From Halomonas alkalisoli (GTDB taxonomy: Bacteria; Pseudomonadota; Gammaproteobacteria; Pseudomonadales; Halomonadaceae), in NCBI RefSeq assembly GCF_021412585.1, contig NZ_JAKCMI010000030.1, positions 1 to 64,000 on the forward strand: a DNA stretch of 64,000 nt, in the 5' to 3' direction. Below are positions 13,029 through 52,408 of the stretch, piece after piece (position 1 is the first letter of the stretch; each line of letters begins with the position of its first letter). The notes under the pieces are model-generated. The model was not told the DNA's origin and ran no database searches. It saw only the letters and a program-made list of their open reading frames with translations. The position numbers and the translations under genes are program-made.

Positions 13029-13776
13029 GGCGGGCTCCTCCGATATAGGATTCGATCACGCGCTCATCGCGCGAGACCGTGGCGTAATCGCCCTCCACCA
13101 GCACTTCGCCGCGGGCCAGCACGGTAATGCGGTCGCAGAGTTCGGCCACCACGCCCAGGTTGTGCTCCACCATGAGTACCGATCGACCCTCGGCCACGCG
13201 GCGGATCAGCGCGGCGGTGCGGCCTACGTCTTCGGCGCCCATGCCGGCGAGTGGCTCGTCGAGCAGCATCAGCTGAGGGTCGAGCGCCAGCGTGGTCGCG
13301 AGCTCCAGCGCACGCTTGCGACCGTATGGCAGCTCGGCGGCGGGGGTATCGGCCCAGGCCTCGAGCCCCACGTCCTCGAGCAGCGCCATGGCACGTTCCT
13401 GATGATGGTCGAGCCGGTGATGGGAGGCCCAGAAATCGTAGGACTCGCCGCGCTGTCGCTGCAGCGCCAGCTTGACGTTCTCGAGGGTCGTCAGGCGGCT
13501 GAAGACGGCGGATATCTGAAACGAACGGACCATGCCAAGCCGTGCCACCTGGTCCGGCTTGAGCCGGGTAATGTCGCGCCCCTGGTAGAAGATGCTGCCG
13601 GCACTGGGCTCGAGGAACTTGGTCAGCAGGTTGAAACAGGTCGTCTTGCCTGCACCGTTGGCGCCGATCATGGCATGTATGGTGCCGGGCTCGATACGAA
13701 TGGAGATATCGCTGACCGCCTTGAAGCCCCGGAAGCTCTTGGTCAGGCCCCGGGTCTCGATAATTGCCTCTGCCAT
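13021..13776 (-). CDS. LIV-type ABC transporter ATP-binding protein (LivG-like)
   Basis: The 251-residue protein has Walker A MIGANGAGKTTCFNLLTKF, the LivG-type VRSFQISAVFSRLTTLENVK, and Walker B LMLLDEPLAGMG. It appears to start its own transcript: the upstream 239 bp hold no other gene on this strand and a terminator from the next unit. It forms the ATPase pair with the LivF-like gene that overlaps its end. The signature segment reads AAELPYGRKRALELATTLA, close to the usual LivG form. Confidence 0.92.
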   Translation of the reverse strand: MAEAIIETRGLTKSFRGFKAVSDISIRIEPGTIHAMIGANGAGKTTCFNLLTKFLEPSAGSIFYQGRDITRLKPDQVARLGMVRSFQISAVFSRLTTLENVKLALQRQRGESYDFWASHHRLDHHQERAMALLEDVGLEAWADTPAAELPYGRKRALELATTLALDPQLMLLDEPLAGMGAEDVGRTAALIRRVAEGRSVLMVEHNLGVVAELCDRITVLARGEVLVEGDYATVSRDERVIESYIGGARHD

Positions 13777-13970
13777 TGCACACTCCGCTATTGTTGTTGT
13801 CCGGTGTCGAGGCGACGGGATCGGCGTGATTGCATCGCGGCGCTCCGTCAGCTTCAGTGTTGTAGCAACAGAGGGGCTGTGCCATGGCCGCAGGGCACGT
13901 GAGGCTATCCAAAAGCCACATCATTGGCTCGGCTCGGCGTGCAGGGAGGCGGTAGACAACGAAAACCGGA

Positions 13971-41449: not shown

Positions 41450-42493
41450 TTACTTCAACTCTGAGGGCACAAGGTTGTCGGGGATGTCGAGCCCTACCTC
41501 CTGATAATAACGAAGAGCACCGGGATGCAGGGGGGTGTTCATATCCTGGAAGACGGTATCCAGAGACAGGTTGCGCATCTGCGGAATCGCATTTTGCTTT
41601 TCCTCCAAGTTCTCCCAGAATGCCTTGGTCATCGCATAAATGGCTTCTTCCGGCATGTCCTTGTTGGTCGCCATGCCTATGGTCACCTGTATGGACCGAG
41701 CTGGCTCGGTATTGACCTGATTATCGCCGTATATTCCAGCAGGCAATTCCGCTATGCGAAAGCCAGGCCGGCTCAGTACAGCCTCAAGATCACCTTCTTC
41801 TGTTTCCGGAATACTCAAGAAACGAATCTTATTGGCCATCGCTATCTGGGTCAAGATAGGGCTGGGAGCCTGGGTTGGATTGAAATAGACATCAATGTTT
41901 CCATCTTGAAAGCTCTGAGCAGCCGCATCCCAGCTGATATTGATTGCCCGATAGTCTTCGCCAGCCTTATAGCCAGTCACGCCCTCTATAAGCGGCTCAA
42001 CCGTTTGTCGTGCCTGTCCGGTCGGCGGTCCAGTAAAAACGCGCTTCCCCTGCAGGTCGGCGTATGTCTCTATTCCAGAGTCTGCATAAACTACTGCATG
42101 ATAGAGCCCCATGGGATAATTGAAAATGGCGCGCATATTGTCATATAGTTCAGGTGCCTGAGGTAGTGTCTCAAACATGCCAGTACCACTCTGCATCAAC
42201 GCCGCCATGCCCGGCGAAAAGCTAGCAGTAAGCTGTGTAACTCCTTGAGCCGTAGCAACGGCATGCTCCGGACCACTACCGGTCGCATCGACTTGAATTG
42301 CATACTCCGTCTGGTTGCTAACAATATCAGAAAACACAGTCGACACCACATAGGGAGAGCTCCCCGTACCGAGCGTTTTGAGCCGGTAGTTTGATTGTGC
42401 AAGGCTCTCATCGGAGCTGATCATACCGAGTACGCCGCTCAGCAGAGCTCCTCCTATCAAGGTCATCGTCAAGGGTTTTATTACTTTTATCAT
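41450..42493 (-). CDS. TAXI-family TRAP transporter solute-binding protein
   Basis: The 347-residue protein has a signal peptide (LTMTLIGGALLSGVLGMISS) and the TAXI-type pattern LGTGSSPYVVSTVFSDIV, then VDATGSGPEHAVATAQGVTQ and LQGKRVFTGPPTGQARQTVE. TAXI binding proteins deliver small acidic solutes to fused DctQM permeases, and one is encoded 27 bp upstream. The gene is less GC-rich in codon third positions than the hpa genes, in keeping with the island. Confidence 0.9.
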   Translation of the reverse strand: MIKVIKPLTMTLIGGALLSGVLGMISSDESLAQSNYRLKTLGTGSSPYVVSTVFSDIVSNQTEYAIQVDATGSGPEHAVATAQGVTQLTASFSPGMAALMQSGTGMFETLPQAPELYDNMRAIFNYPMGLYHAVVYADSGIETYADLQGKRVFTGPPTGQARQTVEPLIEGVTGYKAGEDYRAINISWDAAAQSFQDGNIDVYFNPTQAPSPILTQIAMANKIRFLSIPETEEGDLEAVLSRPGFRIAELPAGIYGDNQVNTEPARSIQVTIGMATNKDMPEEAIYAMTKAFWENLEEKQNAIPQMRNLSLDTVFQDMNTPLHPGALRYYQEVGLDIPDNLVPSELK

Positions 42494-42520
42494 GATGGTG
42501 CTCCTTCTCTGGCTTGTTGG

Positions 42521-44392
42521 TTATATCAAAGTTGATAGAGGGCGCTTGAAATGTGAAACCGCTATCAAGGTTATCCCCCCCATGAAGGCACCGAACACTT
42601 GGATTGGCAGTGATGGTGCCACGAGAGCAATCGACACCGTGGCTGATACGCCCCACCAGAGTCGACCACGAATGCTGATTGTCGCAATCAGGTAGGCTGC
42701 CAGAACCAGCCGAGCAAGCGACCAGATAAGCTCGCCGAACGAGAAGTCGGCGATCAGTAGCATCGACGGGCTATAGACGAAAACGAAAGGCGTCAGGAAG
42801 CCAATGAATGCCAGGCGTCCCATAGCCGTCATACCGATCGCCATGGGGTTGGCACCGGCGATGGGTGCCGCCGCGAAGGCGGCCAAGGCGACAGGTGGAG
42901 TGATTGCCGACAGCACGGCGAAATAGACGACAAACATATGGGCAGCAATGGTCGGAACACCGAGCGCCTCCACGGCCGGCCCCATGATCAGGATGATGAT
43001 CAGGTAGGCCGGTACCGTAGGCATCCCCATCCCCAGTACGAGGCATGCCAGAGCCATTAGTACAAGCGACAGGAACAGGGATCCATCGGCAACCGATTGA
43101 ATCGATGAAGCAAAACGCAAGCCGAGCCCCGTCAGGTTCATCACCGCAATGATAATGCCGACGGCTCCCACGGCAATCAGGATGACTCCTCCCGCGCTAG
43201 CGCTACCGCTGACGATATTCATGAGAGCCTTTACATTGCGTGCTCTAGGGTTGAATAACAGCCCTAGCACCAAAGCTGCTCCAATCGCCCAGAGCCCAGC
43301 CATGGCCGGGGAGCGCCCCTGAAGCATCAACATAACAATGAGGACTAGAGGAACAAGGAAGGCCGAGAGCAGCATCCAGTCCTGGCGGCTGAGGGTGGGA
43401 AGAGAGCGACGATCAGCAGCGGTAATCCCCATCCGGCGGGCTTCTGCGCCAACACTGGCAAATAAGCTGCCATAGAAAAGCAGGGCGGGAATCAGCGCGG
43501 CCAGACAGATCTGCAGATAAGGGATACCAGTCATATCGGCCATGATAAAGGCTACTGCCCCCATGATGGGCGGCATGATCTGTCCCCCACTGGAGGCCGC
43601 GGCCTCTACAGCTCCTGCAAATCGTGCACTGAAGCCGCTCCTTTTGATCATGGGCATGGTCACGACCCCAGTGCCCACGACGTTGGCCACCACGCTGCCT
43701 GAGACTGTCCCGAACAAACCACTTGCCATTACCGCTGCATAGGCGGCCCCACCGCGCAATCTTCCCAAAGTACGCAATGATAGGTTGAGTAGCACCTGAC
43801 CAATACCCAGGGATTCCAGTACTGCACCGAAAATAATGAATACCAGTATGGTACTGGTCACTACGGCCAAGGGCTGACCAAACACACCGTCGAAGCTGTA
43901 CCAGAAAGTCTGCAGTAGCTCACTATAGGAAATTCCCGAATGTCTTAGTATGCCCGGCAACACATCTCCTAAATAAGCATAAGAAGCCACGATCAAGGCA
44001 ACCAGAACCAAAGGGAGGCCAATGGCTCGGCGAGTCAACTCAAGAAGTGCCAATATACCCCCCAAGCCGCACCACAGGTCGAGAGGTTGGAGTAAATAGA
44101 GTCCCGACTTCAGAAAGTCAGCGATGATAAAGTAACGCCAGGCAGCAACCACAATCAGTACGACAAGGACCAAGTCAAGCAACCATCGTAATGCATGGCT
44201 GGGCCGGCGCAGCGAATGAAATAGAAGAAATAATGCACCCAATGTGAAGCCGCCGACACGCACCAGAGCATCATCGAATACCCCGAATCTCGCAGTATAG
44301 AGAGCACCGCCGACGAGGAGCGCCCCTACGATATACATCAAGCCAGTGGTGAGCATCACCAGCGGGGAGCAGAAATTATCGCGGGTTGACAT
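42521..44392 (-). CDS. TRAP transporter fused permease (DctQ-DctM) of the TAXI system
   Basis: The 623-residue membrane protein has an N-terminal group of about four to five helices (DctQ-like) and a DctM-like remainder. The latter shows LESLGIGQVLLNLSLRTLGR, GTVSGSVVANVVGTGVVTMP and LVLGMGMPTVPAYLIIILIM. This fused form is typical of TAXI-associated TRAP systems. It precedes its binding protein in one minus-strand unit. Two operator-like palindromes lie 126 and 296 bp upstream of its start. Confidence 0.9.
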   Translation of the reverse strand: MSTRDNFCSPLVMLTTGLMYIVGALLVGGALYTARFGVFDDALVRVGGFTLGALFLLFHSLRRPSHALRWLLDLVLVVLIVVAAWRYFIIADFLKSGLYLLQPLDLWCGLGGILALLELTRRAIGLPLVLVALIVASYAYLGDVLPGILRHSGISYSELLQTFWYSFDGVFGQPLAVVTSTILVFIIFGAVLESLGIGQVLLNLSLRTLGRLRGGAAYAAVMASGLFGTVSGSVVANVVGTGVVTMPMIKRSGFSARFAGAVEAAASSGGQIMPPIMGAVAFIMADMTGIPYLQICLAALIPALLFYGSLFASVGAEARRMGITAADRRSLPTLSRQDWMLLSAFLVPLVLIVMLMLQGRSPAMAGLWAIGAALVLGLLFNPRARNVKALMNIVSGSASAGGVILIAVGAVGIIIAVMNLTGLGLRFASSIQSVADGSLFLSLVLMALACLVLGMGMPTVPAYLIIILIMGPAVEALGVPTIAAHMFVVYFAVLSAITPPVALAAFAAAPIAGANPMAIGMTAMGRLAFIGFLTPFVFVYSPSMLLIADFSFGELIWSLARLVLAAYLIATISIRGRLWWGVSATVSIALVAPSLPIQVFGAFMGGITLIAVSHFKRPLSTLI

Positions 44393-44687: not shown

Positions 44688-44704
44688 ATTTCACTTGGTG
44701 AAAA
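44688..44704. promoter_or_regulatory. IclR-type operator 4 (between TAXI-TRAP and hpa units)
   Basis: ATTTCACTTGGTGAAAA shares 16 of 17 bases with operator 1, including its asymmetric TTG centre. It lies 296 bp from the TAXI permease start and 91 bp before the hpa palindrome, so it could act on either divergent unit. No protein gene was found in 44393-44962; that gap is entirely regulatory in appearance. Confidence 0.6.
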
Positions 44705-44778
44705 GCATGCCTTCCTTTGTGACGGCAAACTGCCATACTGCCGTCGAATTACCGGCACGACCACCATAGCCATCATAA

Positions 44779-44794
44779 CGTTAACATGTTAACG
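44779..44794. promoter_or_regulatory. Candidate HpaR operator before the hpa operon
   Basis: CGTTAACATGTTAACG is a perfect 16-bp palindrome. It overlaps a weak promoter candidate, TTAACG at 44789-44794 and TATCAT at 44813-44818 with an 18-nt spacer. Position and symmetry fit a MarR-type repressor, and hpaR is the last gene of the operon. Confidence 0.55.
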
Positions 44795-44833
44795 AGCTGG
44801 TAAGTTGCGACGTATCATATGTTCATTGATGCC

Positions 44834-44945
44834 GAACAACAAACAACAAACAACAAACAACAAACAACAAACAACAAACAACAAACAACAAACAACGAAC
44901 AACAAACAACGAACAACGAACAACGAACAACGAACAACGAACAAC
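44834..44945. repeat. Sixteen 7-bp tandem repeats (AAACAAC/GAACAAC) in the hpa leader
   Basis: The units run without interruption: one GAACAAC, eight AAACAAC, one GAACAAC, one AAACAAC and five GAACAAC. A partial seventeenth unit merges with the hpaF ribosome binding site AAGGAG at 44950. The tract lies just downstream of the candidate promoter. Because 7 is not a multiple of 3, each copy change would also shift the frame of the ATG at 44819, which now reads through into hpaF. Confidence 0.9.
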
Positions 44946-44962
44946 GAACAAGGAGTCACGAC

Positions 44963-45352
44963 GTGCCGCATTTAAGACTCGAATACTCACCGGGACTGGC
45001 GCAGCGCGCCGATATCGGCGCCGTCTGCCGGGCCGCCTACGAGGCGATGAAGGCTACGGGCATCTTCCCGCTGGCGGGGATCCGCGTGCGGGCCTATGCC
45101 GCCGATCACTGCATCGTCGCCGATGACCTGGCCGAGAACGACTTCGCCGCCCTGACCCTATCGGTCGGTGCCGGCCGCGACAAACCGGCGCTACAGGCCG
45201 CCGGGGAGCGGATCTTCGCCGCCGTCCAGGCCGCCCTGGCCGAGCCGCTGGCGACACCCCACTTCGCCCTGTCACTGGAGATCCGCGTCATGGATCCGGA
45301 TCTGAGCTGGAAAGACACCCCGATACACGCCCGACTCTCGGGCACCAAGTGA
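44963..45352 (+). CDS. hpaF: 5-carboxymethyl-2-hydroxymuconate delta-isomerase
   Basis: The 129-residue tautomerase-like protein begins with the conserved PHLRLEYS (catalytic Pro after the start residue) and contains GIRVRAYAADHCIVADD, as in CHMI/HpaF (about 126 residues). It isomerises 5-carboxymethyl-2-hydroxymuconate in homoprotocatechuate degradation. The GTG at 44963 was chosen because AAGGAG lies 7 nt upstream and it puts proline at position 2. An in-frame ATG at 44819 would add 48 residues encoded by the 7-bp repeats and is unlikely to be the normal start. Confidence 0.88.
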   Translation: MPHLRLEYSPGLAQRADIGAVCRAAYEAMKATGIFPLAGIRVRAYAADHCIVADDLAENDFAALTLSVGAGRDKPALQAAGERIFAAVQAALAEPLATPHFALSLEIRVMDPDLSWKDTPIHARLSGTK

Positions 45353-45365
45353 GGGAAGGAAAACG

Positions 45366-46874
45366 ATGAGTACGCTTAGCGATAACCTGTCTCGCGCCGA
45401 AGGCTACCTGGCACGCTTCCGTGCAAGCGGCGTGATGAACCATATTGATGGCGAGTCCGTACCGGCCGCCTCGGGCAAGACCTTCGAGACGCTCTCGCCG
45501 GTCGATCTCAAGCCGCTCGCCCAAGTCGCCAAGGGCAATGCCGACGATATCGACCGCGCCGTCAAGGCCGCCGAAAGGGCCTTCAAGACCTGGAGCAAGA
45601 CCCCCGGCAAGGAGCGGCGAGCCATCCTCATCCGCGTCGCCGAAGCGATCGAGGCACGCGCCGAGGAGATCGCATTCACCGAGTGCCTGGATACCGGCCA
45701 GGCGCTGCGCTTCATGGAAAAGGCTGCGGTTCGCGGTGCCGCCAACTTCCGCTTCTTCGCCGACAAGGCGCCGGAGGCCGAGGATGGATTGGCGCTGCGC
45801 AACGCCGACCAGATGAACGTGACGTCGCGGCGTCCGCTGGGCCCCGTGGGGGTCATCACGCCGTGGAACACGCCTTTCATGCTGTCGACCTGGAAGATCG
45901 CGCCGGCGCTGGCCTCGGGCTGCACCGTAGTGCACAAGCCGGCCGAATTCTCGCCGATGACCGCCAAGCTGCTGGTCGAGATCGCCGAGGAGGCCGGTCT
46001 GCCCAAGGGCGTGCTCAATCTGGTCAACGGCTTCGGCGAGGACGCCGGCAAGGCCTTGACCGAGCACCCGGGGATCAAGGCGATCGCCTTCGTCGGCGAG
46101 AGCCGCACCGGCCAGATGATCATGGCCCAGGCGGCGCCGACTCTGAAGCGCTTCCATTTCGAGCTGGGTGGCAAGAACCCGGTCATTGTCTTCGACGACG
46201 CCGACCTGGATCGCGCCGTCGACGCCGCCAGCTTCATGATCTACTCGCTCAATGGCGAGCGCTGCACCTCGTCCTCACGGCTGCTGGTGCAAGACTCGAT
46301 CTACCAGGACTTCACCCGCCGCGTCGCCGAGGTGGCCAACAACATCAAAGTCGGACATCCGCTCGACCCGGACACCGTGGTCGGCCCGCTGATCCATCCC
46401 GAGCACGAGCAGAAGGTGCTGTCGTACTTCGCCAAGGCGCGTGACGAGGGAGCGACCATTGCCGCCGGCGGCGAGAAGGTTGGCGAGGAAGGCTGCTTCG
46501 TGCGCCCGACGCTGTTCACCGATGCCACCAACGACATGACCGTCGCCCAGGAAGAGATCTTCGGACCGGTGCTTACCGCCATCCCGTTCAAGGATGAGGA
46601 AGAGGCACTGCGACTGGCCAACGATACCCAGTACGGCCTGGCCGCCTACCTGTGGACCAACGACCTGAACCGGGCGATGCGCATGACCGACGAGCTGGAA
46701 GCCGGAATGATGTGGGTGAACTCGGAGAACGTCCGCCACCTGCCGGCCCCGTTCGGCGGCGTCAAGGCCTCCGGTATCGGCCGCGACGGCGGTGACTGGT
46801 CCTTCGACTTCTATATGGAGACCGTCAACGTCTCCTTCCCGCGCCAGATTCACCAGGTGCCGAAGCTCGGTTGA
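45366..46874 (+). CDS. hpaE: 5-carboxymethyl-2-hydroxymuconate semialdehyde dehydrogenase
   Basis: The 502-residue ALDH has VGVITPWNTPFMLSTWKIAP, FELGGKNPVIVFDDADLDRA, the catalytic cysteine in NGERCTSSSRLLVQ, and the HpaE-like end MWVNSENVRHLPAPFGGVKA. It oxidises the ring-cleavage product of homoprotocatechuate to 5-carboxymethyl-2-hydroxymuconate. It follows hpaF by 13 bp, with GAAGGAAAACG before the ATG. Context (hpaF, hpaH, hpaD, hpaI) makes the pathway assignment firm. Confidence 0.92.
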   Translation: MSTLSDNLSRAEGYLARFRASGVMNHIDGESVPAASGKTFETLSPVDLKPLAQVAKGNADDIDRAVKAAERAFKTWSKTPGKERRAILIRVAEAIEARAEEIAFTECLDTGQALRFMEKAAVRGAANFRFFADKAPEAEDGLALRNADQMNVTSRRPLGPVGVITPWNTPFMLSTWKIAPALASGCTVVHKPAEFSPMTAKLLVEIAEEAGLPKGVLNLVNGFGEDAGKALTEHPGIKAIAFVGESRTGQMIMAQAAPTLKRFHFELGGKNPVIVFDDADLDRAVDAASFMIYSLNGERCTSSSRLLVQDSIYQDFTRRVAEVANNIKVGHPLDPDTVVGPLIHPEHEQKVLSYFAKARDEGATIAAGGEKVGEEGCFVRPTLFTDATNDMTVAQEEIFGPVLTAIPFKDEEEALRLANDTQYGLAAYLWTNDLNRAMRMTDELEAGMMWVNSENVRHLPAPFGGVKASGIGRDGGDWSFDFYMETVNVSFPRQIHQVPKLG

Positions 46875-46988
46875 TCCCAAACGCCTCGAGCATGGCCCGA
46901 GGCCCTGTCGCCACGGTCTTCTGCCCGGCCTGTGGCGGCCCTGATATCCGCGAGCCCGGTGCCGCCGGGATCGCCAGGAGGACGACAC

Positions 46989-47867
46989 ATGAATCGACCC
47001 ATCCCCGCCCGCCTCACCGCCTTCCGCGCCAACGGTGCCGATCGCTACGGCGTGGTCGTCGATGCCGGCATCATCGACCTGACGCCGGAGTTCGGCTCGC
47101 GCTTCAGCGGGCTCAAGGAGGTCATCGAAGCCGGCGCCATCGACGAGCTGCTCAAGGCCGCCGAGGGCCGCACACCCAGCTATCGCGAAGAGGACGTGAG
47201 CTTCCTGATCCCGATCGCCAACCCGGAGAAGCTGATCTGCGTCGGGGTCAATTTCCCCTCGCGCAACGAGGAGTACAAGGACGGCCAGGCGGCGCCCGGC
47301 AAGCCCTCGCTGTTCATCCGCTTCCCGCGCAGCTTCGTCGGCCACCGCCACAACCTGGTGCGCCCCCCGGAGAGCGACCAGCTCGACTACGAGGGCGAGG
47401 TGACCATCGTCATCGGCAAGAGCGGTCGCCGGATCCCGCAGGAGCGGGCCTACGAGCACATCGCGGCCCTGACGCTGTGCAATGAGGGCACGATCCGCGA
47501 CTGGGTTCGCCATGCCAAGTTCAACGTCACCCAGGGCAAGAACTTCGACGCGACCGGCGCGATCGGCCCCTGGCTGGTGCCCTTCACATCGGCCGATCAA
47601 CTGGATGATATCGAGCTGACCACCCGGGTCAACGGCGAGCTGCGACAGCAGGATCGCACCTCGCGAATGATGTTCGATTTCCGCTACATCGTCAGTTACG
47701 TCTCCACCTTCACCACCCTGGTGCCCGGCGACGTCATCGTCTGCGGTACGCCCACGGGTGCCGGTGCCCGCTTCGAGCCGCCGATCTGGCTCAAGCCGGG
47801 TGACGTGGTCGAAGTCGAGGCCGAGGGCATCGGCAAGCTCGTCAACGGCGTGGAGGACGAACGATGA
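46989..47867 (+). CDS. Fumarylacetoacetate hydrolase-family protein, probable decarboxylase step of the hpa pathway
   Basis: The 292-residue protein has one FAH domain with KLICVGVNFPSRNEEYKDG, the metal-binding LDYEGEVTIVIGK and the late VPGDVIVCGTPTGAG. In E. coli the 5-oxopent-3-ene-1,2,5-tricarboxylate decarboxylase HpaG has two fused FAH domains (about 430 residues); here only one domain of this type is present. It probably performs the decarboxylation with or without a second protein. Its end overlaps hpaH by 4 bp (ATGA). The start at 46989 has AGGAGG upstream. Confidence 0.83.
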   Translation: MNRPIPARLTAFRANGADRYGVVVDAGIIDLTPEFGSRFSGLKEVIEAGAIDELLKAAEGRTPSYREEDVSFLIPIANPEKLICVGVNFPSRNEEYKDGQAAPGKPSLFIRFPRSFVGHRHNLVRPPESDQLDYEGEVTIVIGKSGRRIPQERAYEHIAALTLCNEGTIRDWVRHAKFNVTQGKNFDATGAIGPWLVPFTSADQLDDIELTTRVNGELRQQDRTSRMMFDFRYIVSYVSTFTTLVPGDVIVCGTPTGAGARFEPPIWLKPGDVVEVEAEGIGKLVNGVEDER

Positions 47868-48667
47868 CGCTGGCACCGGCGCAGGTCGCCTCGGCCGCCG
47901 AGTCGCTGCTCGCCGCCGAGGCGAAGCGCGAGCCGATCGGATTGCTGTCTCTCGCCCACCCCGGCATGACCCTGGATGACGCCTATGCCATCCAGGCTGC
48001 CCAGATGGAGAAGAAACTCGCCCAGGGGCGAGAGATCATCGGCTGGAAGATCGGGCTGACCTCCAAGGCGATGCAGGACGCGCTCGGTATCGACACCCCC
48101 GACAGCGGGGTGCTCTACGACGACATGGCCTTCGCCGACGGCGCCACGATCTCCGAGGCACGTTTCATCCAGCCGCGCATCGAGGCCGAGATCGCCTTTG
48201 TCATGAAGGCACCGCTGGAAGGTAATGTCACCCGCATGGAGGTCCTGGCCGCTACCGACTATGTGGCGCCGGCGATCGAGATCCTCGATACCCGCATTCT
48301 GCGCAAGGACCCCGAGACGGGCCAGGCCCGCACCATCTTCGACACCGTATCGGACAACGCCGCCAACGCCGGCATCGTTCTGGGTCAGCAGCGACACGCC
48401 CCCGACGCCTTCGACCTGCGCTGGGTCGGTTCCATCGTCAAGCAGAACGAGACGGTGGTCGCGACCGGCCTGGGGGCCGGGGTGCTGGACGATCCGGTCA
48501 CCGGCCTGGTCTGGCTGGCCCGTCGCATGGCGACCTATGGGCAGCGAATCGAAGCCGGCCAGGTCGTGCTGTCGGGCTCCTTCATCGGTCCCGTCGAGTG
48601 CCCGTCGGGCACGGACATTCACGCCGATTACGGGCCCTTTGGGTCAGTGAGCCTGCGCTTCGCGTGA
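47864..48667 (+). CDS. hpaH: 2-oxo-hept-3-ene-1,7-dioate hydratase
   Basis: The 267-residue protein matches HpaH: YAIQAAQMEKKLAQGREIIG, WKIGLTSKAMQDALGI, the metal-binding RIEAEIAFVMK and the C-terminal VVLSGSFIGPVECPSG. It hydrates the dienoate to 4-hydroxy-2-oxoheptanedioate, the substrate of HpaI. The start overlaps the FAH-domain gene by 4 bp, so the two are translationally coupled. Confidence 0.93.
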   Translation: MTLAPAQVASAAESLLAAEAKREPIGLLSLAHPGMTLDDAYAIQAAQMEKKLAQGREIIGWKIGLTSKAMQDALGIDTPDSGVLYDDMAFADGATISEARFIQPRIEAEIAFVMKAPLEGNVTRMEVLAATDYVAPAIEILDTRILRKDPETGQARTIFDTVSDNAANAGIVLGQQRHAPDAFDLRWVGSIVKQNETVVATGLGAGVLDDPVTGLVWLARRMATYGQRIEAGQVVLSGSFIGPVECPSGTDIHADYGPFGSVSLRFA

Positions 48668-48702: not shown

Positions 48703-49566
48703 ATGGGTGAAGTTGTTCTTGCAGCGAAAGTCACACACGTTCCGTCCATGTACCTGTCGGAACTCCCCGGCCAGCATCATGGCTGCCGCCAGGCGGCCAT
48801 CGCCGGCCATAAGGAGATCGGCCGTCGCGCCCGCGAGCTGGGCGCGGATACCGCCGTCGTGTTCGACGTCCACTGGCTGGTCAACAGCGGTTATCACATC
48901 AACTGCGGCGAGCGGTTCGAGGGCATCTATACCAGCGGTGAGCTACCGCACTTCATCAAGGATATGGCGTACCAGTACCAGGGCTGCCCCGAACTGGGGG
49001 AGGCGATTGCCGCCGAGGCCAATGCCGCCGACGTGCGTACCCTGGCCCATAACATTCCCAGCCTGGAGCTGGAATACGGCACCCTGGTGCCGATGCGCTA
49101 CATGCACATGGACGTGCCCGAAGACCAGCACTTCAAGGTGATCTCCGTCGCGGCCTGGAACGCCTGGCATCGCCTCGAGGACAGCTTCACCTTCGGTGCC
49201 GCGGTGCGTCGCGCCATCGAGAAGAGCGATCGCAAGGTGTTGGTGCTGGCCTCAGGCTCGCTGTCGCACCGCTTCTCCGATGACCGCAAGGCCGCCGATA
49301 ACCTGCACAACTGGACCCGGGAATTCGACAAGCAGGTCGATATGCGTGTCGTCGAACTCTGGAAGCAGGGGCGCTTCAAGGAGTTCTGCGCCATGCTGCC
49401 GGAATATGCCGAGCACTGCTACGGCGAAGGCGGCATGCACGATACCGCCATGCTGCTCGGCCTGCTCGGTGGTGAGGAGTACGACAAGCCGGTGGAGATC
49501 CTTACCGAGCCGTTCGGCAGTTCCGGGACCGGGCAGATCAACGCCGTCTTTCCGCTTCCCTGGTGA
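48703..49566 (+). CDS. hpaD: 3,4-dihydroxyphenylacetate 2,3-dioxygenase
   Basis: The 287-residue class III (LigB-type) extradiol dioxygenase opens the ring of homoprotocatechuate using Fe(II). It has AAKVTHVPSMYLSELPGQHH with the first histidine ligand, VVFDVHWLVNSGYHIN and ALASGSLSHRF-like VLVLASGSLSHRFSDD. The size matches E. coli HpaD (283). TTGGAG lies upstream of the ATG, 35 bp after hpaH. Confidence 0.93.
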   Translation: MGEVVLAAKVTHVPSMYLSELPGQHHGCRQAAIAGHKEIGRRARELGADTAVVFDVHWLVNSGYHINCGERFEGIYTSGELPHFIKDMAYQYQGCPELGEAIAAEANAADVRTLAHNIPSLELEYGTLVPMRYMHMDVPEDQHFKVISVAAWNAWHRLEDSFTFGAAVRRAIEKSDRKVLVLASGSLSHRFSDDRKAADNLHNWTREFDKQVDMRVVELWKQGRFKEFCAMLPEYAEHCYGEGGMHDTAMLLGLLGGEEYDKPVEILTEPFGSSGTGQINAVFPLPW

Positions 49567-49636: not shown

Positions 49637-50440
49637 ATGCAGATGCCCGTCAACACCTTCAAACAGGCGCTCTCCGAGCAGCGCCAACAACTCGGCATGT
49701 GGTTGGGGCTGGCCAATGGCTACAGCGCCGAATTGTGCGCCAATGCCGGCTTCGACTGGCTGCTGCTGGATGGCGAACACGCCCCCAACGACCTGCAGAC
49801 CCTGCTGGCGCAGCTGCAGGCCATCGCCCCCTATGGCAGCCAGCCGGTGGTCCGCCCGCCGGTGGGGAATACCGCCCTGATCAAGCAGTACCTGGACCTG
49901 GGCATCCAGACCCTGCTGGTGCCCATGGTGGACAGCGCCGAGCAGGCCGCTGAGCTGGTGCGTGCCATGCGCTACCCGCCCGAGGGGATACGTGGCGTGG
50001 GCAGCGCCCTGGCACGGGCCTCGCGCTGGAACGGTATCCCCGACTACCTCGATCGGGCGGATGAGCAGATGTGCCTGCTGGTGCAGGTGGAGACCCGCGA
50101 GGGCTTGGCCAACCTGGACGCCATTGCCGCCGTGGAAGGTGTCGATGGGGTCTTCCTCGGGCCGGCGGACCTTTCCGCCGCCCTGGGGCATCGCGGCAAT
50201 CCGGTCCATCCCGAGGTTCAGGCCGCCATCGAGGACGCCATCGCCCGCATCCAGCAGGCCGGCAAGGCCGCCGGCATCCTCTCTGCCGACGAGACCCTGG
50301 CCAAGCGCTATCTCGAACTGGGCTGCACTTTCGTTGCCGTGGGCGTCGACACCAGTTTGCTGATGAAGGCCCTGACCGGCCTGCTCGGGCGCTTCCGGGA
50401 GGGCGCGGACAGGGGCCCCCAGGGCGGCAGCGTCTACTGA
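49637..50440 (+). CDS. hpaI: 4-hydroxy-2-oxoheptanedioate aldolase
   Basis: The 267-residue class II pyruvate aldolase has [34 protein letters not shown] with the catalytic histidine, [20 protein letters not shown] with the metal-binding glutamate, and [15 protein letters not shown]. It splits 4-hydroxy-2-oxoheptanedioate to pyruvate and succinic semialdehyde. The inner ATG at 49637 has GAGGAG upstream; that at 49607 does not. The next gene consumes the semialdehyde. Confidence 0.94.
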
Positions 50441-50459: not shown

Positions 50460-51914
50460 ATGCAACTTTCCGAACCGTCCCTGTTGTGCACCCGGGCCTA
50501 TATTAATGGCCGTTGGGTTGATGCCGATGAGGGTGGCCAGTTCGTCGTCTCCGACCCGGCCGATGGTAGCCGGATCGCCGACGTCGCCGACCTCGGGGCG
50601 GTCGAGACTCGGCGAGCCATCGGCGCCGCCGAGGCGGCCTTGCCGGCCTGGCGGACTCTGACCGGCAAGGCCAGGGGGGCTATCCTGCGGCGCTGGTACG
50701 AGCTGATCCTGGCTCATCAAGAGGATCTGGCACGACTGCTGAGCTGGGAACAGGGCAAGCCGCTTACCGAGAGCCGCGGCGAGATCGCCTATGGGGCCAG
50801 CTTCATCGAGTGGTTCGCTGAGGAAGCCAAGCGCGTGTATGGCGATGTCATTCCCCATGACCGTGATGGGCGTCGGCTGGTGGTGATCAAGCAACCGATC
50901 GGAGTGGTGGGCGCCATCACCCCCTGGAACTTCCCCAATGCCATGATCACCCGCAAGGCCGGACCGGCTCTCGCCGCGGGTTGTACCCTGGTTCTCAAGC
51001 CCGCCGCCGAGACGCCGCTGTCCGCCTTGGCGCTGGCCGAACTCGGCGAGCGGGCGGGCCTGCCGGCGGGGGTCTTCAATGTGGTGCCGGGGACCCGCGC
51101 CCGCGAGATCGGTGCGGTACTGACCGGTAGCCCGGCGGTGCGCAAGCTCACCTTCACCGGCTCCACTGGAGTCGGCAAGCAATTGATGGCACAGGGTGCC
51201 GAGCATATCCAGAAGCTCAGCCTGGAACTGGGCGGCAACGCGCCCTTTATCGTCTTCGATGACGCCGACCTGGATGCCGCGGTGGAAGGGGCGCTAGCCG
51301 CCAAGTTTCGCAACAGTGGCCAGACCTGCGTCTGTACCAATCGGATCCTGGTGCAGGCGGGGATTCACGACGCCTTCGTCCACCGCCTGGCGGCGGCGGT
51401 CGACGGGCTCAAGGTGGGACGGGCCGACGAAGTGGGAGTGCAGCAGGGGCCGCTGATCAATGCCCAGGCGGTGGCCAAGGTGCAGGAGCATATCGAGGAT
51501 GCCCTGAGCCAGGGAGCCGAGCTGGTATGTGGTGGCAAGCCCCACGACCTGGGCGGCGGTTTCTTTGAACCAACCCTGCTGGTGAAAGTCACGTCGGAGA
51601 TGCAGGTGGCTCACGAGGAGACCTTCGGGCCCTTGGCGCCGGTCTTTTGTTTCACCAGCGAAGAGGAGGCGATCCGCCTGGCCAACGATACGCCCTATGG
51701 CCTGGCTTCCTACCTCTATACCCGTGATCTGGGCCGTGCCTGGCGGGTCGGAGAGGCACTGGAATATGGTATGGTCGGCATCAATGAAGGCATCATTTCC
51801 ACCGAGGTGGCGCCCTTCGGCGGTATCAAGGAGTCCGGCCTCGGTCGCGAGGGCTCCCACTATGGAATCGATGAGTATCTCGAAGTGAAATACCTGTGTC
51901 TTGGCATTCAGTGA
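50460..51914 (+). CDS. gabD: Succinate-semialdehyde dehydrogenase
   Basis: The 484-residue ALDH has the GabD-type sequence VVGAITPWNFPNAMITRKAG, LSLELGGNAPFIVFDDADLD, the catalytic cysteine in NSGQTCVCTNRILV, and GLGREGSHYGIDEYLEVKYL at the end. It oxidises succinic semialdehyde to succinate, closing the homoprotocatechuate route to the TCA cycle. GAGGAG precedes the ATG, 20 bp after hpaI. Confidence 0.92.
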   Translation: MQLSEPSLLCTRAYINGRWVDADEGGQFVVSDPADGSRIADVADLGAVETRRAIGAAEAALPAWRTLTGKARGAILRRWYELILAHQEDLARLLSWEQGKPLTESRGEIAYGASFIEWFAEEAKRVYGDVIPHDRDGRRLVVIKQPIGVVGAITPWNFPNAMITRKAGPALAAGCTLVLKPAAETPLSALALAELGERAGLPAGVFNVVPGTRAREIGAVLTGSPAVRKLTFTGSTGVGKQLMAQGAEHIQKLSLELGGNAPFIVFDDADLDAAVEGALAAKFRNSGQTCVCTNRILVQAGIHDAFVHRLAAAVDGLKVGRADEVGVQQGPLINAQAVAKVQEHIEDALSQGAELVCGGKPHDLGGGFFEPTLLVKVTSEMQVAHEETFGPLAPVFCFTSEEEAIRLANDTPYGLASYLYTRDLGRAWRVGEALEYGMVGINEGIISTEVAPFGGIKESGLGREGSHYGIDEYLEVKYLCLGIQ

Positions 51915-51979: not shown

Positions 51980-52408
51980 ATGTCTAGACCGACTCCCTCC
52001 CTGACCCTGGCCCTGCTCCAGGCCCGTGAGGCCGCCATGGGCTATTTTCGCCCCCTGCTCAACGAGCACGGGTTGACCGAGCAGCAGTGGCGGGTAATCC
52101 GCATACTCAAGCAGTCTCCCGAGGCCACTCTGGAGAGCCGCGAGCTGGCCGAACAGGCCTGTATCCTGCGACCCAGCCTGACCGGCGTCTTGGTGCGCCT
52201 GGAACGCGACGGCTATGTGCGGCGCTGGAAGCCGGAGCACGACCAGCGTCGGCTCTGTGTGACCCTGACGGAGCAGGGCCATGCCCTCTTCGATGCCATG
52301 AGTATTGGAATGATTCGCCAATACCAAAAAATTCAGCAGCAGTTGGGGGCTGAGAACTTCACAGACTTGATGGCATTACTCAGACGGCTTCGGCAGCTTG
52401 AACCTTAA
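51980..52408 (+). CDS. hpaR: HpaR, MarR-family repressor of homoprotocatechuate degradation
   Basis: The 142-residue protein matches HpaR: LTEQQWRVIRILKQSPEATL, LAEQACILRPSLTGVLVRLE and GYVRRWKPEHDQRRLCVTLT form the winged helix. HpaR represses the hpa genes and is released by the aromatic acid. Here it is the last gene of the operon rather than divergent as in E. coli. The perfect palindrome at 44779 is its likely target. A terminator follows at 52506. Confidence 0.92.
   Translation: MSRPTPSLTLALLQAREAAMGYFRPLLNEHGLTEQQWRVIRILKQSPEATLESRELAEQACILRPSLTGVLVRLERDGYVRRWKPEHDQRRLCVTLTEQGHALFDAMSIGMIRQYQKIQQQLGAENFTDLMALLRRLRQLEP

Follow-up and report, generated by a model that had tools for sequence, protein, structure and literature searches.

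Tracts of heptanucleotide repeats are found in the promoters of adhesin genes in Haemophilus. At the mRNA level, Pseudomonas uses an A-rich sequence, the CA motif, which is defined as AAnAAnAA in the excerpts consulted of PMC5429807. Situated near a translation start, this motif is a target of Hfq acting together with Crc, according to the accessible parts of two papers (PMC5429807, PMC10617552). The Hfq/Crc site of amiE is given as AAAAAUAACAACAAGAGG in the sections consulted (PMC5815094, PMC6422490), and the sites of the RNA CrcZ are described, in the portion available, as ARN runs with n of 4 or more (PMC4063720). Here, we describe a heptamer array in the leader of a homoprotocatechuate operon, which appears specific to its lineage, seems to have grown by slippage, and may work as a multi-site Hfq/Crc element. 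We give this reading a probability of about 0.38.

The window, i.e., the whole stretch of DNA that was analyzed, comprises the first 64 kb of contig C28 in a genome of 4.87 Mb and 47 contigs. Sixteen uninterrupted RAACAAC heptamers run into the AAGGAG of hpaF, just as the first-pass annotation had reported (Table 1). Tandem Repeats Finder (TRF) gives the array a score of 185 (44835–44951, 16.7 copies), against 53 for the runner-up array in the window. Read 5′ to 3′, the first letters of the units are G AAAAAAAA G A GGGGG (one G, eight A, one G, one A, and five G). The annotation had seen a pure AAACAAC block and a pure GAACAAC block; both blocks are present, but a G unit opens the array, and one G unit and one A unit lie between them. 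The last full unit is separated from the hpaF start codon by 17 nt. No second site with at least three RAACAAC units was found in the 4.87 Mb genome, where the 14 overlapping matches all fall in the hpaF array. A tandem repeat thereby stands within a regulatory region, which is a mark of phase-variable simple sequence repeat loci.

Downstream of the array, the genes for homoprotocatechuate degradation follow in one direction. The precomputed Pfam family PF02962 is assigned to a protein identical to the HpaF of the window, while the NCBIfam model PRK15031 reaches 75.7 bits with it, under its cut-off of 215. The closest named HpaF proteins belong to Halomonas kalidii (90% identity) and H. elongata (89%), and the protein cluster of the window HpaF lists one contig. 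Divergent from hpaF lies a TRAP-TAXI transporter pair (41450–44392); in the sister genome G050, the divergent neighbor of hpaF (L027) resembles, by eye, an AraC-type regulator.

Table 1. Features of the hpaF leader and operon in the window, with positions counted from its first letter.
Feature	Position	Strand	Basis or remark
Palindrome GTTAACATGTTAAC, operator-like	44780..44793	+	counterpart upstream of hpaF in 16/17 relatives
Weak promoter candidate TTAACG-18-TATCAT	44789..44818	+	9/12 match; motif scan vs shuffles
ATG in frame with hpaF at 16 copies, without SD	44819..44821	+	sequence
Upstream frame of 48 codons, without SD	44829..44975	+	sequence; begins at ATG 44829, crosses the array, and ends at TAA 44973–44975, overlapping the hpaF start
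Heptamer array, 16 full RAACAAC units	44834..44945	+	sequence, TRF
Nine AACAACAA copies matching the CA motif AAnAAnAA	44835..44905	+	first bases 44835, 44842, 44849, 44856, 44863, 44870, 44877, 44884, 44898
Partial unit GAACAA after the array	44946..44951	+	sequence; overlaps the start of AAGGAG by its last two bases
AAGGAG, Shine-Dalgarno (SD) sequence of hpaF	44950..44955	+	sequence
hpaF, 5-carboxymethyl-2-hydroxymuconate isomerase	44963..45352	+	Pfam PF02962, PRK15031; GTG start at 44963
hpaE	45366..46874	+	TIGR02299, over cut-off
HpaG-like hydrolase, start uncertain	46986..47867	+	TIGR02303, below cut-off
hpaH	47864..48667	+	TIGR02312, over cut-off
hpaD	48703..49566	+	TIGR02298, over cut-off
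hpaI	49637..50440	+	TIGR02311, over cut-off
Succinate-semialdehyde dehydrogenase (SSADH)	50460..51914	+	TIGR01780, over cut-off
hpaR, MarR-type regulator	51980..52408	+	TIGR02337, over cut-off

A search for hpaF recovered the gene from 2 of the 90 genus genomes and, with the own genome included, from 28 of the 275 family genomes. Leaders were compared in the 17 relatives whose HpaF shares at least 65% identity, and ten more genomes with only more distant matches were left out. None of the 17 leaders carries the array; AACAAC and AAnAAnAA are equally absent from them between −120 and +15, and two heptamer units within 300 nt were found at none of the 21 hpaF loci tested. A single regular expression recovered the operator-like sequence (A/G)TTAATATGTTAA(C/T), with variants, in 16 relatives, starting 69–122 nt upstream of hpaF, and similar sequence is visible in the one that it missed (L028). 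As a guess, the palindrome could be the operator of HpaR. In the window, it lies 183 nt upstream of the start codon, or 71 nt once the 16 units are subtracted. Since the latter distance falls within the range of relatives that have no array, the array looks like an addition to an otherwise ordinary leader.

The promoter itself differs from that of the relatives. The first TTGAC occurs 23–25 nt upstream of the operator-like sequence in 14 of the 17 and 26 nt upstream in L010, while in L041 the scan matched a farther TTGAC; the window has no TTGAC on the hpaF strand within 260 nt upstream of the start. Because TTGAC is gone and the palindrome is kept (44703–44793), the promoter has seemingly been remodeled or lost strength. 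On this comparison of sequences, the array adjoins a promoter whose −35 region appears diverged, and a rearranged neighborhood may explain the change. The first-pass annotation had placed the array between a candidate promoter and AAGGAG. Its position between the operator-like palindrome and the SD holds, whereas the promoter candidate hardly exceeds chance (two candidates in the region on both strands, against 0.9 ± 0.9 in shuffles). The array appears to be lineage-specific and has probably grown in a recent expansion by replication slippage. The earlier claim of slippage-driven expansion agrees with this as far as recency goes, given the absence from all 17 relatives and the normal spacing without the 16 units; the slippage itself is what we infer.

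A chance AACAAC beside the SD could have grown into an array with no regulatory role or a slight one, because the leader tolerates unstructured AC-rich sequence, and we hold this neutral course to be almost as likely as the Hfq/Crc reading. The array-free leaders of the 17 relatives are in keeping with it. Evidence for the Hfq/Crc reading includes the content of the array. It holds the nine CA motifs of Table 1, while the GAACAAC units adjoining the SD form no AAnAAnAA; the closest motif ends 57 nt upstream of the GTG and does not overlap the SD. No long (ARN)n run, as for the distal face of Hfq, occurs in the leader, where the longest is 3, compared with six in amiE and at least 4 in CrcZ.

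The proteins that would bind such motifs appear to be encoded in the same genome. Hfq is found over the cut-off, with 138.6 bits to the Hfq structure 1u1s in PDB. There are two proteins of the xth family, one of which is Crc-like. Its best PDB match is 2myi (256.2 bits), which is named exodeoxyribonuclease III, closely followed by Crc (4jg3, 253.7; 4f1r, 253.1), and the exonuclease 2jc5 (215.5) and exonuclease III 1ako (50.8) score lower. At a position that we take to hold the catalytic residues of the nuclease, the second xth protein has GDFN, the Crc-like protein GTWH, and Crc GSLY. With GTWH in place of GDFN, and GSLY in Crc, this xth-family protein looks Crc-like rather than like an active nuclease. 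It has counterparts of 93% identity in G050 and 86% in G179, and distant matches of 44–46% in G495 and G520. The CrcZ family of Rfam (RF01675) has no match in the own genome and none in any of the 14 control genomes, and no Rfam family reaches the gathering level in the window.

The motif is also frequent in front of other genes of this genome. Counting overlapping matches, AACAACAA occurs 54 times within 20 nt upstream of an ATG, about three-fold more than its reversed pattern (18; p = 3e-5), and AATAANAA occurs 64 times against 29 reversed (p = 4e-4, overlapping matches counted). The permuted motif gives 10 against 8 reversed, and a comparison of the two enrichments, AACAACAA and permuted, shows no significant difference (Fisher p = 0.15). 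The AACAACAA matches fall at 52 distinct places with 34 frames of at least 70 aa, 25 of which were classified. Nine frames were dropped: a second-ATG duplicate (L251), frames taken to start at internal ATGs, since an open frame extends upstream of them (L197 twice, L238), frames without a Pfam family (L196, L202, L249), and frames not scanned (L237, L243). L182 and L198 were kept despite an open frame upstream, since the family match in each starts close to the ATG. Uptake proteins account for 11 of the 25 (L182, L184, L185, L191, L193, L194, L198, L201, L239, L241, L251), and several more genes encode dehydrogenases or oxygenases. The background consisted of 28 frames from 15 stretches picked before their content was seen; 19 had a Pfam family and two of these, both of one operon, were uptake proteins (2/19 vs 11/25, Fisher p = 0.02, with classes assigned afterwards by the analyst). 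That the array unit coincides with a motif in excess before the ATG codons of this genome speaks against purely neutral growth.

Further sites were noted. The amiE site ends in the 12 bases AACAACAAGAGG, and these recur in the leaders of genes for a TAXI-type solute-binding protein (L193, C19:153499) and a MalK-type ATPase (L198, C21:110947). On the minus strand of the window (13774–13798), a AACAACAA leader precedes a gene for a UrtD-like ABC ATPase, and the array of G179 likewise stands before an ABC ATPase gene. Upstream of a gene of the TENA/THI-4/PQQC family (L247, C42:33316), AACAACAAACAACTAACAGGA forms two tandem near-units, which perhaps represent an early stage of a heptamer array.

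Heptamer arrays of at least four units are present in 2 of 275 genomes of the family, the own genome and G179, which belongs to another genus. The array of G179 (C13:81427–81460; L026 2427–2461) consists of one TAACAAC and four GAACAAC units on the sense strand, and ends 17 nt upstream of the ATG of an ABC-transporter ATPase gene, the same distance as in hpaF; a UrtE-like ATPase (below the cut-off) is encoded next to this gene. This rarity, together with the shared strand and 17-nt spacing before a start codon, counts against neutral slippage. When three units suffice, an array is found in 3 of the 390 genomes sampled from the order, the own one included. In G520 it lies 60 nt upstream of a 210-aa frame on its own strand, which is MOSC-like by eye only, and the array of G495 is outside the leader pattern, because a long frame surrounds it on the opposite strand.

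Arrays in other bacteria speak for the neutral explanation. A scan of genome contigs returned at least 106 stretches with a heptamer array, and about 65 of the 80 array loci listed are from cyanobacteria or Bacteroidetes, as judged by record titles. A sense-strand bias of AACAACR arrays was considered as an argument for an RNA role. The first count was 21:4 and included many arrays that fell within called frames or at the edge of a locus; a recount with ATG-only gene calls, for arrays between same-direction genes in other bacteria, gave 18 sense to 8 antisense. Single AACAAC sequences in other gaps of those loci stand at 44:23, so that the arrays are not more strand-biased than the composition, and the argument was dropped. 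Judged from these genomes, the heptamer in general gives no sign of an RNA role, and only the two cases in the family appear alike.

Copy changes had been expected by the first-pass annotation to alter the structure of the leader and to toggle whether the ATG at 44819 is in frame with hpaF. The structural part is not supported by the folding predictions. The predicted unpaired probability of the SD stays at 0.65–0.66 or at 0.52 over 14–24 copies, depending on the candidate 5′ end (44796 or 44825), and changes from 0.56 to 0.66 or from 0.51 to 0.52 between 0 and 16 units. The z-score of the leader fold is 0.03, with the array almost unpaired. As accessibility is flat over 14–24 units, slippage by single units should not act through structure, and tuning by this route was discarded on the models with 0 to 24 units; the same independence of copy number suits neutral slippage. 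An unpaired array that abuts the SD could instead enhance translation, as a ribosome standby or S1-binding tract that increases translation of hpaF independently of Hfq and Crc. In the excerpts consulted of PMC4679880, MacGregor proposed a part for S1, Csp, or Csr proteins at the TAACTGA heptamers that precede start codons. We regard an enhancer as unlikely, however, since the predicted accessibility of the SD is similar at 0 and 16 units.

The arithmetic of the reading frame stands. The 7-base unit shifts the frame: the ATG at 44819 is in frame with hpaF at 13, 16, and 19 copies but not at 15 or 17, the ATG at 44829 is in frame at 14, 17, and 20, and both frames cross the array without a stop. 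Slippage could in principle switch between copy numbers that fuse these frames to hpaF. As a switch, however, this is very improbable: no SD is seen by eye ahead of either ATG, and the SD and GTG of hpaF itself stay in place whatever the number of copies. Variants with an N-terminally extended HpaF were rejected, as none is found among the 120 listed of 683 homologues (124–141 aa; an indirect measure, since the starts are those of gene callers). As far as the consulted part of PMC4679880 reports, two repeats lying between a promoter and a start codon have been studied, and both belong to genes of surface proteins. What remains as a route for an effect of copy number is a protein that binds the repeats and tunes expression by degrees.

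The Hfq/Crc element would provide such a route. Replication slippage probably multiplied the heptamers between the operator-like palindrome and the ribosome-binding site, and transcription through the array would yield an AC-rich leader, on which Hfq and its partner Crc are predicted to find multiple landing sites. As long as a preferred carbon source lasts, the two would restrain translation of the homoprotocatechuate operon, and gain or loss of units would change the number of sites and tune expression in a graded manner rather than as an on/off switch. Nine CA motifs, genes for Hfq and a Crc-like protein, the excess of AACAACAA before ATG codons, and the 11 uptake genes out of 25 make the array plausible as a catabolite-repression element. 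The array of G179, with its strand and spacing, appears to add to this. Counting against the Hfq/Crc reading are the short ARN runs (≤3), the 57 nt to the nearest CA motif, the relatives' leaders without the motif, an excess that is not significantly distinct from that of the permuted motif, a Crc-like protein whose best PDB match is named exodeoxyribonuclease III, and arrays elsewhere without strand bias beyond that of single AACAAC. A further version is decidedly unlikely, in which the array is both a slippage-tunable dial of catabolite repression and a built-in decoy. The CA motifs would bring Hfq/Crc to the hpa mRNA, the heptamer count would determine the strength in a given strain, and the strongly induced leader would soak up Hfq/Crc as CrcZ does, lifting the repression of other catabolic genes.

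If the Hfq/Crc reading is right, simple replication slippage can multiply a post-transcriptional motif of catabolite repression, and bacteria would have a means of adjusting aromatic degradation quickly in evolution. A further implication would be that Halomonadaceae have a CA-motif regulon served by Hfq and Crc. In the portion of the literature retrieved on Halomonas with Crc, Hfq, catabolite repression, or phase variation and tandem repeats, no study of such a regulon was found.

Among known systems, the tracts of Haemophilus adhesin genes resemble the array as 7-bp tandem repeats upstream of a gene. Unlike those tracts, which lie in the promoter of a surface protein, the hpaF array is located between an operator-like site and the SD of a metabolic operon. 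The heptamers of marine Beggiatoaceae have the unit TAACTGA and occur in 169 sets in the excerpts consulted (MacGregor, 2015; PMC4679880), whereas here the unit is RAACAAC, in one array and with a clear SD. The decoy RNAs CrcZ and CrcY are similar in carrying several CA motifs per RNA, six in CrcZ according to the part available of PMC5429807 against nine here; in contrast, the hpaF array is part of an mRNA leader and has ARN runs of 3, where the accessible section on CrcZ gives n of 4 or more (PMC4063720). The nearest likeness is to the A-rich mRNA operators for Hfq/Crc in Pseudomonas, such as that of amiE. The array differs from amiE-type operators in its nine tandem CA motifs, none of them over the SD, and in its ARN runs of 3 rather than 6, and binding is here a prediction. 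It shares AACAAC with the amiE site and, like these operators, puts AAnAAnAA into the leader ahead of catabolic genes, and the host encodes Hfq and a Crc-like protein.
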